Part shown: one piece after another, positions 4,001-46,400 of the stretch | Layout: every line of letters begins with the position of its first letter | Position numbering within the stretch: position 1 is the first letter of the stretch | Source of the DNA: Glandiceps talaboti | Taxonomy: Eukaryota > Hemichordata > Enteropneusta > Spengelidae | DNA: 64,000 bases | Reading direction: 5' to 3' | Assembly (NCBI RefSeq): GCF_964340395.1 | Contig: NC_135550.1 | Span: 12,117,908-12,181,907 of the forward strand | Translations under genes and position numbers: made by a program | Notes under the pieces: model-generated | Told to the model about the DNA's origin: nothing | The model's database searches: none | Seen by the model: only the letters and a program-made list of their open reading frames with translations

Positions 4001-7000
4001 AGAAAGAGTCAGTACATAACCCTGGTCTACTGATGAAGTCAAGGTTAGTCTATACCTCTATCTAGTAGTGATGAAGTCAAGGTTAGTCTATACCTCTATC
4101 TAGTAGTGATGAAGGCAAGGTTAGTCTATACCTCTATCTAGTAGTGATGAAGTCAAGGTTAGTCTATACCTCTATCTAGTAGTGATGAAGTCAAGGTTAG
4201 TCTATACCTCTATCTAGTAGTGATGAAGGCAAGGTTAGTCTATACCTCTATCTAGTAGTGATGAAGGCAAGGTTAGTCTATACCTCTATCTAGTAGTGAT
4301 GAAGGCAAGGTTAGTCTATACCTCTATCTAGTAGTGATGAAGGCAAGGTTAGTCTATACCTCTATCTAGTAGTGATGAAGGCAAGGTTAGTCTATACCTC
4401 TATCTAGTAGTGATGAAGGCAAGGTTAGTCTATACCTCTATCTAGTAGTGATGAAGGCAAGGTTAGTCTATACCTCTATCTAGTAGTGATGAAATCAATG
4501 TTAGTCTATACCTCTATCTAGTAGTGATGAAGGCAAGGTTAGTCTATACCTCTATCTAGTAGTGATGAAGTCAAGGTTAGTCTATACCTCTATCTAGTAG
4601 TGATGAAGTCAAGGTTAGTCTATACCTCTATCTAGTAGTGATGAAGGCAAGGTTAGTCTATACCTCTATCTAGTAGTGATGAAGTCAAGGTTAGTCTATA
4701 CCTCTATCTAGTAGTGATGAAGGCAAGGTTAGTCTATACCTCTATCTAGTAGTGATGAAGACAAGGTTAGTCTATACCTCTATCTAGTAGTGATGAAGTC
4801 AAGGTTAGTCTATACCTCTATCTAGTAGTGATGAAGGCAAGGTTAGTCTATACCTCTATCTAGTAGTGATGAAGGCAAGGTTAGTCTATACCTCTGTCTA
4901 TTGATGAAATCAATGTTAGTCTATACTTCAGTACACAACCCTGGTCTACTGATGAAGGCAAGGTTAGTCAATACCTCTATCTAGTAGTGATGAAGTCAAG
5001 GTTAGTCTATACCTCTGTCTATTGATGAAATCAATGTTAGTCTATACTTCAGTACACAACCCTGGTCTACTGATGAAGGCAAGGTTAGTCAATACCTCTA
5101 TCTAGTAGTGATGAAGTTAAGGTTAGTCTATACCTCTGTCTATTGATGAAATCAATGTTAGTCTATACTTCAGTACACAACCCTGGTCTACTGATGAAGA
5201 CAAGGTTAGTCTATACCTCTATCTAGTAGTGATGAAGTCAAGGTTAGTCTATACCTCTGTCTAGTAGTGATGAAGGCAAGGTTAGTCTATACCTCTATCT
5301 AGTAGTGATGAAGGCAAGGTTAGTCTATACCTCTATCTAGTAGTGATGAAGTCAAGGTTAGTCTATACCTCTATCTAGTAGTGATGAAGTCAAGGTTAGT
5401 CTATACCTCTATCTAGTAGTGATGAAGGCAAGGTTAGTCTATACCTCTATCTAGTAGTGATGAAGTCAAGGTTAGTCTATACCTCTATCTAGTAGTGATG
5501 AAGTCAAGGTTAGTCTATACTTCAGTACACAACCCTGGTCTACTGATGAAGGCAAGGTTAGTCTATACCTCTATCTAGTAGTGATGAAGTCAAGGTTAGT
5601 CTATACCTCTGTCTATTGATGAAGGCAAGGTTAGTCTATACCTCTATCTAGTAGTGATGAAGTCAAGGTTAGTCTATACCTCTGTCTATTGATGAAATCA
5701 ATGTTAGTCTATACTTCAGTACACAACCCTGGTCTACTGATGAAGGCAAGGTTAGTCTATACCTCTATCTAGTAGTGATGAAGTCAAGGTTAGTCTATAC
5801 CTCTGTCTATTGATGAAATCAATGTTAGTCTATACTTCAGTACACAACCCTGGTCTACTGATGAAGGCAAGGTTAGTCTATACCTCTGTCTATTGATGAA
5901 ATCAATGTTAGTCTATACTTCAGTACACAACCCTGGTCTACTGATGAAGGCAAGGTTAGTCTATACCTCTATCTAGTAGTGATGAAGGCAAGGTTAGTCT
6001 ATACCTCTATCTAGTAGTGATGAAGTCAAGGTTAGTCTATACCTCTATCTAGTAGTGATGAAGTCAAGGTTAGTCTATACCTCTATCTAGTAGTGATGAA
6101 GGCAAGGTTAGTCTATACCTCTATCTAGTAGTGATGAAGTCAAGGTTAGTCTATACCTCTATCTAGTAGTGATGAAGGCAAGGTTAGTCTATACCTCTAT
6201 CTAGTAGTGATGAAGGCAAGGTTAGTCTATACCTCTATCTAGTAGTGATGAAGTCAAGGTTAGTCTATACCTCTATCTAGTAGTGATGAAGTCAAGGTTA
6301 GTCTATACCTCTATCTAGTAGTGATGAAGTCAAGGTTAGTCTATACCTCTATCTAGTAGTGATGAAGTCAAGGTTAGTCTATACCTCTATCTAGTAGTGA
6401 TGAAGTCAAGGTTAGTCTATACCTCTATCTAGTAGTGATGAAGGCAAGGTTAGTCTATACCTCTATCTAGTAGTGATGAAGTCAAGGTTAGTCTATACCT
6501 CTATCTAGTACTGATGAAGGCAAGGTTAGTCTATACCTCTATCTAGTAGTGATGAAGTCAAGGTTAGTCTATACCTCTATCTAGTACTGATAAAGGCAAG
6601 GTTAGTCTATACCTCTATCTAGTAGTGATGAAGTCAAGGTTAGTCTATACCTCTGTCTATTGATGAAATCAATGTTAGTCTACACTCCAGTATACAACCC
6701 TGATCTATTTATGAAGTCAAAGATATATATATATATACTCAAGTATATATTTTCAATCTGTTGATGAAATGAGATTAGTATATACTTCATTGTGATAGAG
6801 ACATGAAATATCAATTTATTGCTATCACTGGACACTGTCCCGTATTAATAAATGTGAACAATACATTCAATTCAATAGAGTGTGCACAGTCATCATCGTT
6901 TTTTTAACTGCAATGGTGTTGAGCCTATCGTGTACCCTTGCGCATGGAGTCTGTTATTGGTTGGCGACAATACGCCTACCTTGTACCCCCTAGTAGGGTA

Positions 7001-43400: not shown

Positions 43401-46400
43401 GGTGCATTATAAATTATTTTGATTGATTGATTGATTTATTGATTGATTGATTAATGATATGACGACAACCCAAAGTCATTTTTGTTCATCCCAAAGGACA
43501 TGGCTTAAACTTTGATATTACAAAATTTTATCAGATTGTAAGTTATCTTATTGAAAATACCCCTAGTATGCGTGCATAGCTATTATAAGCGAAATAGAAG
43601 TTCACACACAGGTTATAAAGTCTGTTAGTGCTGGAAAGTGAAAAGGTTAAAATGGTAATCGTTTTGTCAATGAATGAATTAAGGTAACTGATGAGATAAT
43701 GATCCATACCAATTAACGATATCATTACAAAAGTCAAACTACTTATCGTACCAATAGGGATGCTACAGGATCATTATCTTGTTGTCGTGGCAATGCCTGT
43801 GAGTGATGGATGAATGCTTCCATACAAGCGACTTGTGTCCAACTCCATAGAGGTCACAGCTTAATACAAACAACTGACATGCCCAAGGAAATGACATGAT
43901 TGAGTGGTGACGGTGTTACTTTGGGCAATGTCTTTGAGTGACGGCTGTTTTTACTGGTTGATTGTCTTTGAGTGAATGTCTAGAAGTCCGACAACACAAT
44001 GGAAACCTTTACCTATATGCATATTATGTCACTGTTGAATGACGCCTGTTTTACTGCTTGATTGTTTTTGAGTGAATGTCTAGAAGTCCACAACACAATG
44101 GAAAACCTTTACCTATATCATGCATATTATGTCACTGTTTATTTCTTTTTTCTCTCTCCATAGTGTTAGAGGCAAATAACCAACAAACAAGTCAGAAAGT
44201 GGTTGCTCTTGAAGATCAAATAGCAGAACTTGGGCAACAAATTCAACTGGTACGTTGAAATATTGAGTTAAAAATGGGAATTACCTCACATCTATGTACT
44301 ACATAATGTAGTCAGCTGAGGTCTATGAAACCAACAAGAAGGGTTTTTTAAAAAAAAAAAAAATTATATATTGTCAGTTTTTAGAGCAGTAAAATAAACT
44401 GTAATTACAGTTTTTTGACAAACTTTGTTCGATAAAATTTAAACCATATAGACTTTCATGTCAAAACAATATTATTTTATAGTGGGTTTTATGGAGGGAG
44501 CTTAAAGTAAAATGAACAAGTTACAACTTGTTATGAATTACAAATTATATCTTGCCTTTGTTATCTAGTTTTTTTAAGCTCACGCAAGCAATGCCCATTT
44601 GAGTTATGGCACTGGGTTCCTCCCATTGGTCTGTTTGTCTGTATTGAGTCATGTCCCTAACATACACACAAGCTGATTTCATTGAAACCTAGCACAAAGG
44701 TGACTGACAAACCATAGTTAGCTTCATATGCACACCATCATCTCTATACATTTTTGTGCCTAGTAATTTCAAGTGAGGTGTGGTTGTCATAATTTAATTA
44801 ATTCATTTGCAAGTTACCGTTCCAAAGTAACTATATTGTACTATCCTATTGATTCTTGGAATGATGAGCAATATATTCTCCATAATTAATTCATACCATA
44901 GTTCATGTACTACCATATAAGGGTAACTGTTTGATGTAAGCTGCTATGCCTATAGTAGTATGATTTAAGTCAAATATCTACACTCAAATCATGAGATATG
45001 ACCTCTCTACTGGTATTATTACATTTGACCTTGATCTTCAAGGTCAAATGTCAAAATCAAGCCATTTCTTGCATATCATAGACATTTGTAATATTTGTGC
45101 ATCTTATTTATTTCGAAAATGGTAAAATATACTCTCCAAGTGAAAAAATGCCCTTCTCATCTGTGAGAAGGAGAACTTTCAAAAAAACTAAAGTCTTGTA
45201 CTTATCATAACGTACTTCACTAATTTGTATGTTCATTTTGACAGAGGGCCAAAGCCTTGGAGAGGAGTCTGGACTCCATTCCTGAAAATGATACATCAGT
45301 CATTCCAGAAATACAGAAAGACTTTCAGCAATTACAGGTAACATAACCCTTGCTCAACTCATTTCTTTTTTTCATTTTTATTGTAGTGGACTTCATAAAT
45401 ATAAGATTTAAATATTCTACAGTTTTTTTCCCCCCTTTTTGATTCTCTTTATGAAAAGAAAGAAAAGTGAATTCTACCAAACTTGAAACTGCTGCAAACA
45501 CAAATGTAATCCATGTGGTATTTGTTTTTTATTTTTTCAGGATCTACAGAAAGAAAGAGACAAAATTAATGAGAGGTACAACAAGTAAGTGTGAAGAGTG
45601 TTTCAAAAAATTCTACATGATTGAAACAATATGTCATAAAACAAAGTGTTCCAAAGTAATCTACTACAAACAAAATCTCTTAAAACAAGTGTTTCAAAAT
45701 AATCTACGTGAAACGAAACATAAAACAAAGTGTTTTAAAATAATATACATGAAACAAAATCTCATAAAACAAAGTATTCCAAAAAATTCTCCAAGTAACA
45801 AATATTTCTGGTATGATTTTCATTTTATCAGACATTGCAAGAGAGCATTGTGCCATGTTGATTAGATTCCTGCAACAAATATTCAGAAAAAGTAACCCCC
45901 TCCCCATCCAAATAAAAAATGGTGTTCCAACAATTGCACCCTAGGTAACATTAGAAGATTTACAATTCCCTGCAGTGTCTGGTTAGGAAATTGTTCACAT
46001 CAAAATGATCACACCTCAGGTGTGTGATTTGGGTCAAAAAAAGAAGTGATTTTTGGTATCCAATCACAAACACTATATTAGCTATGTATATTAGCTATGT
46101 GTATTCTGTAATCACTCACAAGTACAATTTATCTTACAGATACAAGGAAACTATTGGTATATTACACCAGCAATTACAGGAAGCTAAAAAGACAGCTGAT
46201 GATCGCAGAAAAGATAAACAAGAGAGTAGTTTTAGAGGAACTAAACATGCAACATGGAGTCCACCAACTCCCCAATATAAACGACGTGTACAGATATCTG
46301 AATCGCAACCGACTGTGATACACAGTTCACCTGTTTCACCACCCACCCAAGGTAAGTATCTCAACCAACTTACCTGCTTCATCACCCACCAAAGCCTAGC

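Follow-up and report, generated by a model that had tools for sequence, protein, structure and literature searches.

Mirage-like tandem duplications across exon-intron boundaries in the hemichordate Glandiceps talaboti

We analysed a 64,000-nucleotide stretch of the genome of the enteropneust Glandiceps talaboti (assembly GCF_964340395.1, contig NC_135550.1, positions 12,117,908 to 12,181,907; hereafter the window), which carries PHF10 and a second long gene that we take to be CEP128, a label adopted from an earlier note on this DNA. In both genes, tandem arrays run across exon-intron boundaries, and extra copies of splice sites lie in the adjacent introns. We read these arrays as mirages, a phenomenon already named in amphioxus genes and, with a probability of roughly 0.78, as an ordinary by-product of genome-wide minisatellite birth that survives since the exon-side copy stays intact. 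In other words, an ordinary by-product is most likely, rather than a new process. Mirages recur across this genome (7 of the 222 boundaries that we sampled, ~3%), whereas nucleation of duplications at exon boundaries is not supported.

Tandem-duplication loci in the window were called by ungapped diagonal self-comparison with microsatellites masked. At a score of at least 18 there are 16 such loci, and because no locus reached this score in six replicates of a local second-order Markov null, they exceed chance as duplications. Four of the loci lie across an exon boundary, five more are no farther than 100 bp from an exon, another five are intragenic but more distant, and two are outside PHF10 and CEP128. 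The gene models behind this breakdown were rebuilt here. PHF10 (1002..12556, minus strand) has ten rebuilt coding exons, a count that excludes the first coding exon, and its last exons were not found in the window; human PHF10 chains from the PDB align with the rebuilt protein (best E 8.4e-106). Its exons 8, 9 and 10 correspond to exons 7, 8 and 9 of the earlier note. The other gene, CEP128 (19414..49479, plus strand), comprises 26 coding exons in a single open reading frame, with GT-AG at all introns and a GC content at third codon positions of 0.34. Searches of Pfam at E 0.001 returned no family for PHF10, nor for residues 1-354 of CEP128. Together the two models provide 70 splice boundaries, and the splice-site matrices used for scoring were built from these 35 donors and 35 acceptors, so that real sites are slightly favoured.

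The four boundary-spanning arrays, which the earlier note had pointed out, are all confirmed (6952-7218, 7616-7781, 8048-8197 and 22991-23209). Each unit, ~52-69 bp long, combines exonic with intronic sequence, and the AG or GT survives in several of the intronic copies. The donor of PHF10 exon 10 (7188-7322) lies in a ~52-bp minisatellite (6952..7218, minus strand) in which each unit consists of exon end and donor. GT is kept in three of the five intronic copies, and these decoy donors score 6.5-7.6 compared with 7.1 for the real one. An alternative end of this exon at 7232 was rejected as it breaks the frame; with the donor placed inside the array at 7188 the frame is restored, giving GYKPK as in human. 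Around the exon-9 donor (exon 7739-7871) the tandem copies are diverged (7471..7781, minus strand; above threshold only at 7616-7781): at the homologous position GT is absent from all three intronic copies, one of which carries a GC donor-like site. The acceptor of exon 8 (7979-8088) is covered by a two-copy 69-bp duplication (8048..8197, minus strand) with a single decoy acceptor 69 bp upstream, which retains its AG and scores 12.1 versus 12.2 for the real acceptor; the resulting insert would be 23 codons long, in frame and stop-free. In CEP128, about four diverged copies of 63-68 bp extend over the acceptor of exon 5 (exon 23180-23347; array 22972..23226, plus strand; passing span 22991-23209) and occupy about three quarters of intron 4. 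AG is kept in two of the three intronic copies, with scores of 3.5 and 1.0 compared with 7.5 for the real site.

The same kind of structure is found elsewhere in the genome. We searched the assembly (590 Mb, 47 contigs) with a dynein domain family, which gave 89 matches in about 18 places, and sampled 15 of these as 4-kb stretches, with a duplication-locus cut of 17. This dynein sample contains 82 sense exons with 152 boundaries, of which 148 could be scored, and 23 duplication loci. Four loci overlap an exon edge by interval, and on reading the copies we found the splice site included in three: the donor in L030 and L040, the acceptor in L036. The fourth, L038, was rejected as boundary-spanning, its copy being without the splice site; here (contig G000:C2, about 17.54 Mb) a degraded dynein exon fragment has been copied into the upstream intron. 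In L030 (contig G000:C17, about 2.57 Mb), 50 bp of exon have been copied, and they code for the P-loop GPTGGGKTT (GVMLVGPTGGGKTTVYE); the intronic copy matches the exon side at 52 of 56 bases, has a stop in the P-loop frame and keeps the splice signal (1/1). L036 (contig G000:C12, about 1.72 Mb) has a 192-bp unit, and the splice signal is kept in the one copy examined. The most extended case, L040 (contig G000:C8, about 23.88 Mb), lies in a dynein heavy-chain intron, where 15 copies of CTG|GTAAGT follow one another at 31-34 bp from the presumed real donor onward; all 14 decoy donors are identical over 9 nt. Duplication of segments that span splice sites, with decoy sites left behind, had been suggested in the earlier note, and both the window arrays and the dynein loci bear this out.

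The earlier note knew of no named system with this signature, but it already has a name. Mirages have been described in amphioxus Adh3, the globins BflGb6 and BflGb9, troponin C and PGBD5. There, regular splicing is reported for Adh3 and the globins, and length or somatic instability for Adh3. As in amphioxus, tandem units here lie across the exon-intron boundary (4 of 16 window loci and 3 of 23 dynein loci on reading), AG or GT is kept in many but not all copies, and both 5' and 3' splice sites are affected (four donors and three acceptors). Amphioxus units range from tens of bases to about 160 bp; here six of seven fall within 31-69 bp, and the 192 bp of L036 is somewhat longer. Differences are that the host is an enteropneust hemichordate, not a cephalochordate, and that the arrays are described here from one genome assembly. 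A literature search, weak since most subscription journals lie outside it, showed among the papers listed no mirages by that name beyond cephalochordates. Related ideas deserve mention. According to the amphioxus globin authors, mirages may explain new introns. In the Rogers model, introns are reportedly gained by tandem duplication; the arrays resemble this in that the duplication carries splice signals, and differ in that introns already present house the copies. A further parallel comes from human paralogues with internal tandem repeats, in which minisatellites at an exon-intron boundary may activate cryptic sites (PMC2812944). Boundary minisatellites are common to both cases, but those of that study are variable, belong to recent paralogues in segmental duplications and are in some instances kept in exons.

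How might such arrays come about? Short tandem duplications and minisatellites arise at many sites in this genome, presumably through slippage during replication or through unequal exchange, and mirages would be those, with units of about 30-200 bp, that happen to cover an exon-intron junction. The duplication background is substantial: 57 loci make up 12.1% of the 244 kb formed by the window and its neighbours. Duplications touching coding sequence would presumably be mostly removed by selection. Duplications across a splice site would form a nearly harmless class, as the site adjoining the exon body always stays complete, and if that site is used, the extra copies are simply intronic; they could then drift, some of them expanding, and leave decoy splice sites. 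The mutational mechanism, the use of the exon-side copy and neutrality are what we infer. Selection against coding hits combined with tolerance of junction-spanning copies would make arrays at junctions as frequent as in introns generally, or rarer, but not more frequent. As for the choice of site, PMC9225289 (citing Reed and Maniatis 1986) states that under exon definition the choice tends to fall on the site closest across the exon, and under intron definition on the intron-side site. With longer introns, such as those here (median 758 bp in the window genes and 452 bp in the dynein sample), exon definition would be expected and the exon-side site preferred. On the exon-definition view, few mirages would also be expected where introns are very short.

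The alternative that fares best is a splice-site- or transcription-linked process, involving for example R-loops, that duplicates boundary segments preferentially. Although the earlier note favoured preferential origin at boundaries, we consider it unlikely. It was addressed in samples, namely the window, the 15 dynein loci and the surrounding 200 kb, by two comparisons: the placement of loci called by the ungapped diagonal score, and the matching of gapped 80-bp windows to the adjacent 500 bp. In the window, a match to the adjacent intron at scores 34-42 is seen for 4 of 70 boundary windows, compared with 17.0-17.8% of mid-intron windows; the mid-intron rate is 8-9% as a per-intron mean and 5.4-6.2% without PHF10 intron 10. 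At score 34, the dynein sample gives 6 of 148 boundary windows (4.1%) versus 9.1% in mid-intron. In the surrounding 200 kb, a strict splice-bounded scan yielded 18 exons, and 1 of 36 boundary windows matches compared with 11.3% elsewhere, which is weak evidence; the single match sits in a repeat and may belong to a false exon. A cruder coding scan of the same 200 kb was set aside as too unspecific. At score 34, none of the three samples (70, 148 and 36 boundary windows) shows an excess of repeats at boundaries over mid-intron or, in the third, over the surroundings. Further arguing against a boundary-linked process, donors and acceptors are hit about equally and the largest arrays are far from exons.

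The placement of loci gives a less uniform picture. The 14 intragenic loci of the window were placed either freely or with at most 60 exonic bp covered. Four span a boundary, where free placement predicts 5.1 (p 0.85) and the 60-bp limit 1.7 (p 0.08); leaving out the three PHF10 intron-10 arrays changes this to 4 of 11, versus 3.1 (p 0.38) or 1.4 (p 0.04). In the dynein sample, 11.2 (free) or 6.1 (60-bp limit) of the 23 loci would be expected to overlap an exon edge by interval, compared with the four seen. A circular-shift test of the window (spanning 5 versus 5.4, p 0.71; near 10 versus 7.2, p 0.07) was not used, one boundary having been misplaced in the joined coordinates. As to loci within 100 bp of an exon, the earlier claim of non-random adjacency stands in part: 9 of 14 window loci significantly exceed the 4.1 expected under the 60-bp limit (p 0.006) but not the 6.9 of free placement (p 0.19), and 17 of 23 dynein loci are not a significant excess over either 17.4 (free, p 0.68) or 14.3 (60-bp limit, p 0.17). 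We regard the closeness of window loci to exons as suggestive.

Several points speak against the by-product account, the window result under the 60-bp limit being one of them. Without the intron-10 arrays, 9 of 11 loci lie within 100 bp versus 4.8 expected under free placement (p 0.008) or 3.3 under the limit (p 0.0003). Forbidding all exon overlap renders proximity significant in both samples, though real loci do overlap exons; for dynein, where proximity is otherwise non-significant, the expectation drops to 10.9 versus 17 seen (p 0.007). When the window test is lowered to score 30, boundary windows match in 8 of 70 cases (11.4%), which is below the mid-intron rate of 19.8% but above the 7.5% obtained without PHF10 intron 10. 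In addition, the boundaries of the dynein exons are predictions from paralogue conservation and site scores. Finally, the direction of copying is not equally clear for all arrays. The end of PHF10 exon 9 encodes an acidic linker of low conservation, whose alignment to human PHF10 is poor, and for CEP128 exon 5 an exonic source is putative, judged by a presumed likeness to the human protein.

These last cases bear on a second alternative, in which the order of events is reversed: the splice site arose within a pre-existing intronic minisatellite, and the exon end was captured and lengthened. The acidic end of exon 9 is what such a history might produce. For PHF10 exons 8 and 10 and for L030, the exonic part of the repeat belongs to conserved protein sequence, which is why in these three cases we read the exon as the source and the intron copy as the derivative. 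The duplicated ends of the two PHF10 exons align with human PHF10 (IAQVPRG to VIQVPQG, and GYKPK common to both), and the L030 unit carries the P-loop. We therefore judge the reversed order to be quite unlikely.

Decoy sites might also be kept by selection for regulated alternative splicing, the 23-residue in-frame insert at PHF10 exon 8 being an obvious candidate. Its acceptor nearly equals the real one in score, lies 69 nt upstream and opens no stop, and the uniformity of the 14 decoy donors in L040 points in the same direction. However, a stop-free run of 23 codons is common by chance, the offsets in L030 (56 nt) and L040 (34 nt) break the frame, reading on through the PHF10 exon-10 array meets a stop, and AG or GT has been lost in several other copies. 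Selection for the decoys thus seems very improbable to us. Least credible of all is an assembly artefact or collapsed haplotypes: mitochondrial sequence is held as self-repeats on one contig, so tandem misassembly may occur, and the L040 copies look alike by eye, but aligned copies are 54-93% identical, that is 7-46% different, which makes assembly duplication unlikely, and the CEP128 and PHF10 frames are open across the modelled junctions.

If the arrays are mirages as we propose, their presence in an enteropneust means that they are not a peculiarity of amphioxus, and the neutral by-product account gains over a lineage-specific mechanism. The arrays would also be natural experiments in splice-site choice, with identical donors or acceptors, up to 15, set in series at native genes, and competition among these sites bears on models of intron gain. 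A more far-reaching possibility, which we hold to be rather unlikely, is that mirages form a standing genome-wide class in this hemichordate, supplying near-identical competing splice sites, some of them used, so that new exon ends and introns are continually tried. The 15-donor dynein array and the PHF10 decoy acceptor would then be examples in use.

The remaining window loci lie beside exons or farther into introns. The earlier note had listed four arrays close to exons, and each is found there: a 77-bp duplication without a splice site at 8584..8725 (start at 8558 by Tandem Repeats Finder), 36 bp upstream, in the gene sense, of PHF10 exon 7 (8420-8548); a complex 23/30/50/159-bp minisatellite at 32371..33210, 58 bp past CEP128 exon 14; a 100-bp duplication at 43949..44139, ending 25 bp ahead of exon 21; and a 44-bp minisatellite at 45622..45802, 38 bp past exon 23 (or 13 bp if the cut is relaxed). 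To these we add a 211-bp duplication at 36761..37129, 90 bp ahead of exon 18, which was absent from that list. Not adjacent to exons are a 55-bp minisatellite at 29470..29629 (139 bp ahead of CEP128 exon 13), a 54-bp duplication at 37687..37783 (321 bp past exon 18) and three large minisatellites in PHF10 intron 10 (2267..6685; units of 37, 27/129 and 38 bp), 0.5-2 kb from the exons found. Much of this intron is taken up by the 38-bp minisatellite (4028-6685, ~69 copies), together with a longer higher-order variant. At 53976-54925, about 20 copies of a 41-bp unit run directly into about two inverted copies of that unit. A piece of dispersed repeat lies at about 9300-9400, with 39 of 40 scored query matches elsewhere in the genome, and intron 24 of CEP128 (about 46900-48470) contains, as judged by eye, broken reverse transcriptase sequence resembling non-long-terminal-repeat retrotransposons. 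Two further genes are present on the minus strand: a single-exon gene with a cyclin N-domain (14081-15013), presumably CNTD1-like, and a seven-transmembrane receptor gene (about 59709-61508), which we take to be a muscarinic acetylcholine receptor.

The mitochondrial contig (G000:C40, L044-L046), which we assume to be from the same animal, carries COX1, confirmed by search, three times at a spacing of 15,435 bp. Neighbouring genes are those that we take to be ND2, COX2 and ATP6; with these labels the order is ND2, transfer RNAs (tRNAs), COX1, tRNA-Ser, COX2, ATP6, with COX1 and COX2 on one strand. No AAA, AGA or AGG is present in the 1,186 codons read under these labels (ND2, COX1, COX2 and part of ATP6), and lysine is encoded by AAG in 13 of 13 cases. 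Of the 23 ATA codons, four fall in COX1, where the best PDB chain has Met, Ile, Ile and Val; the positions in the other three genes look Ile-like. A tRNA-Lys-like stretch with the loop CTCTTAA, seen by eye and not found by ARAGORN, lies between COX2 and ATP6. PMC3121625 gives for Balanoglossus AUA as Ile, absence of AAA and AGG, AGA as Ser and a tRNA-Lys loop CU CUU AA, and a codon table differing from this in Saccoglossus, Rhabdopleura, echinoderms, tunicates and vertebrates. ATA as Ile is common to echinoderms and hemichordates, and the echinoderm gene order is very different, according to PMC2697986. In lacking AAA and AGG and in the loop of its tRNA-Lys-like stretch, the mitochondrial sequence found here is Balanoglossus-like.

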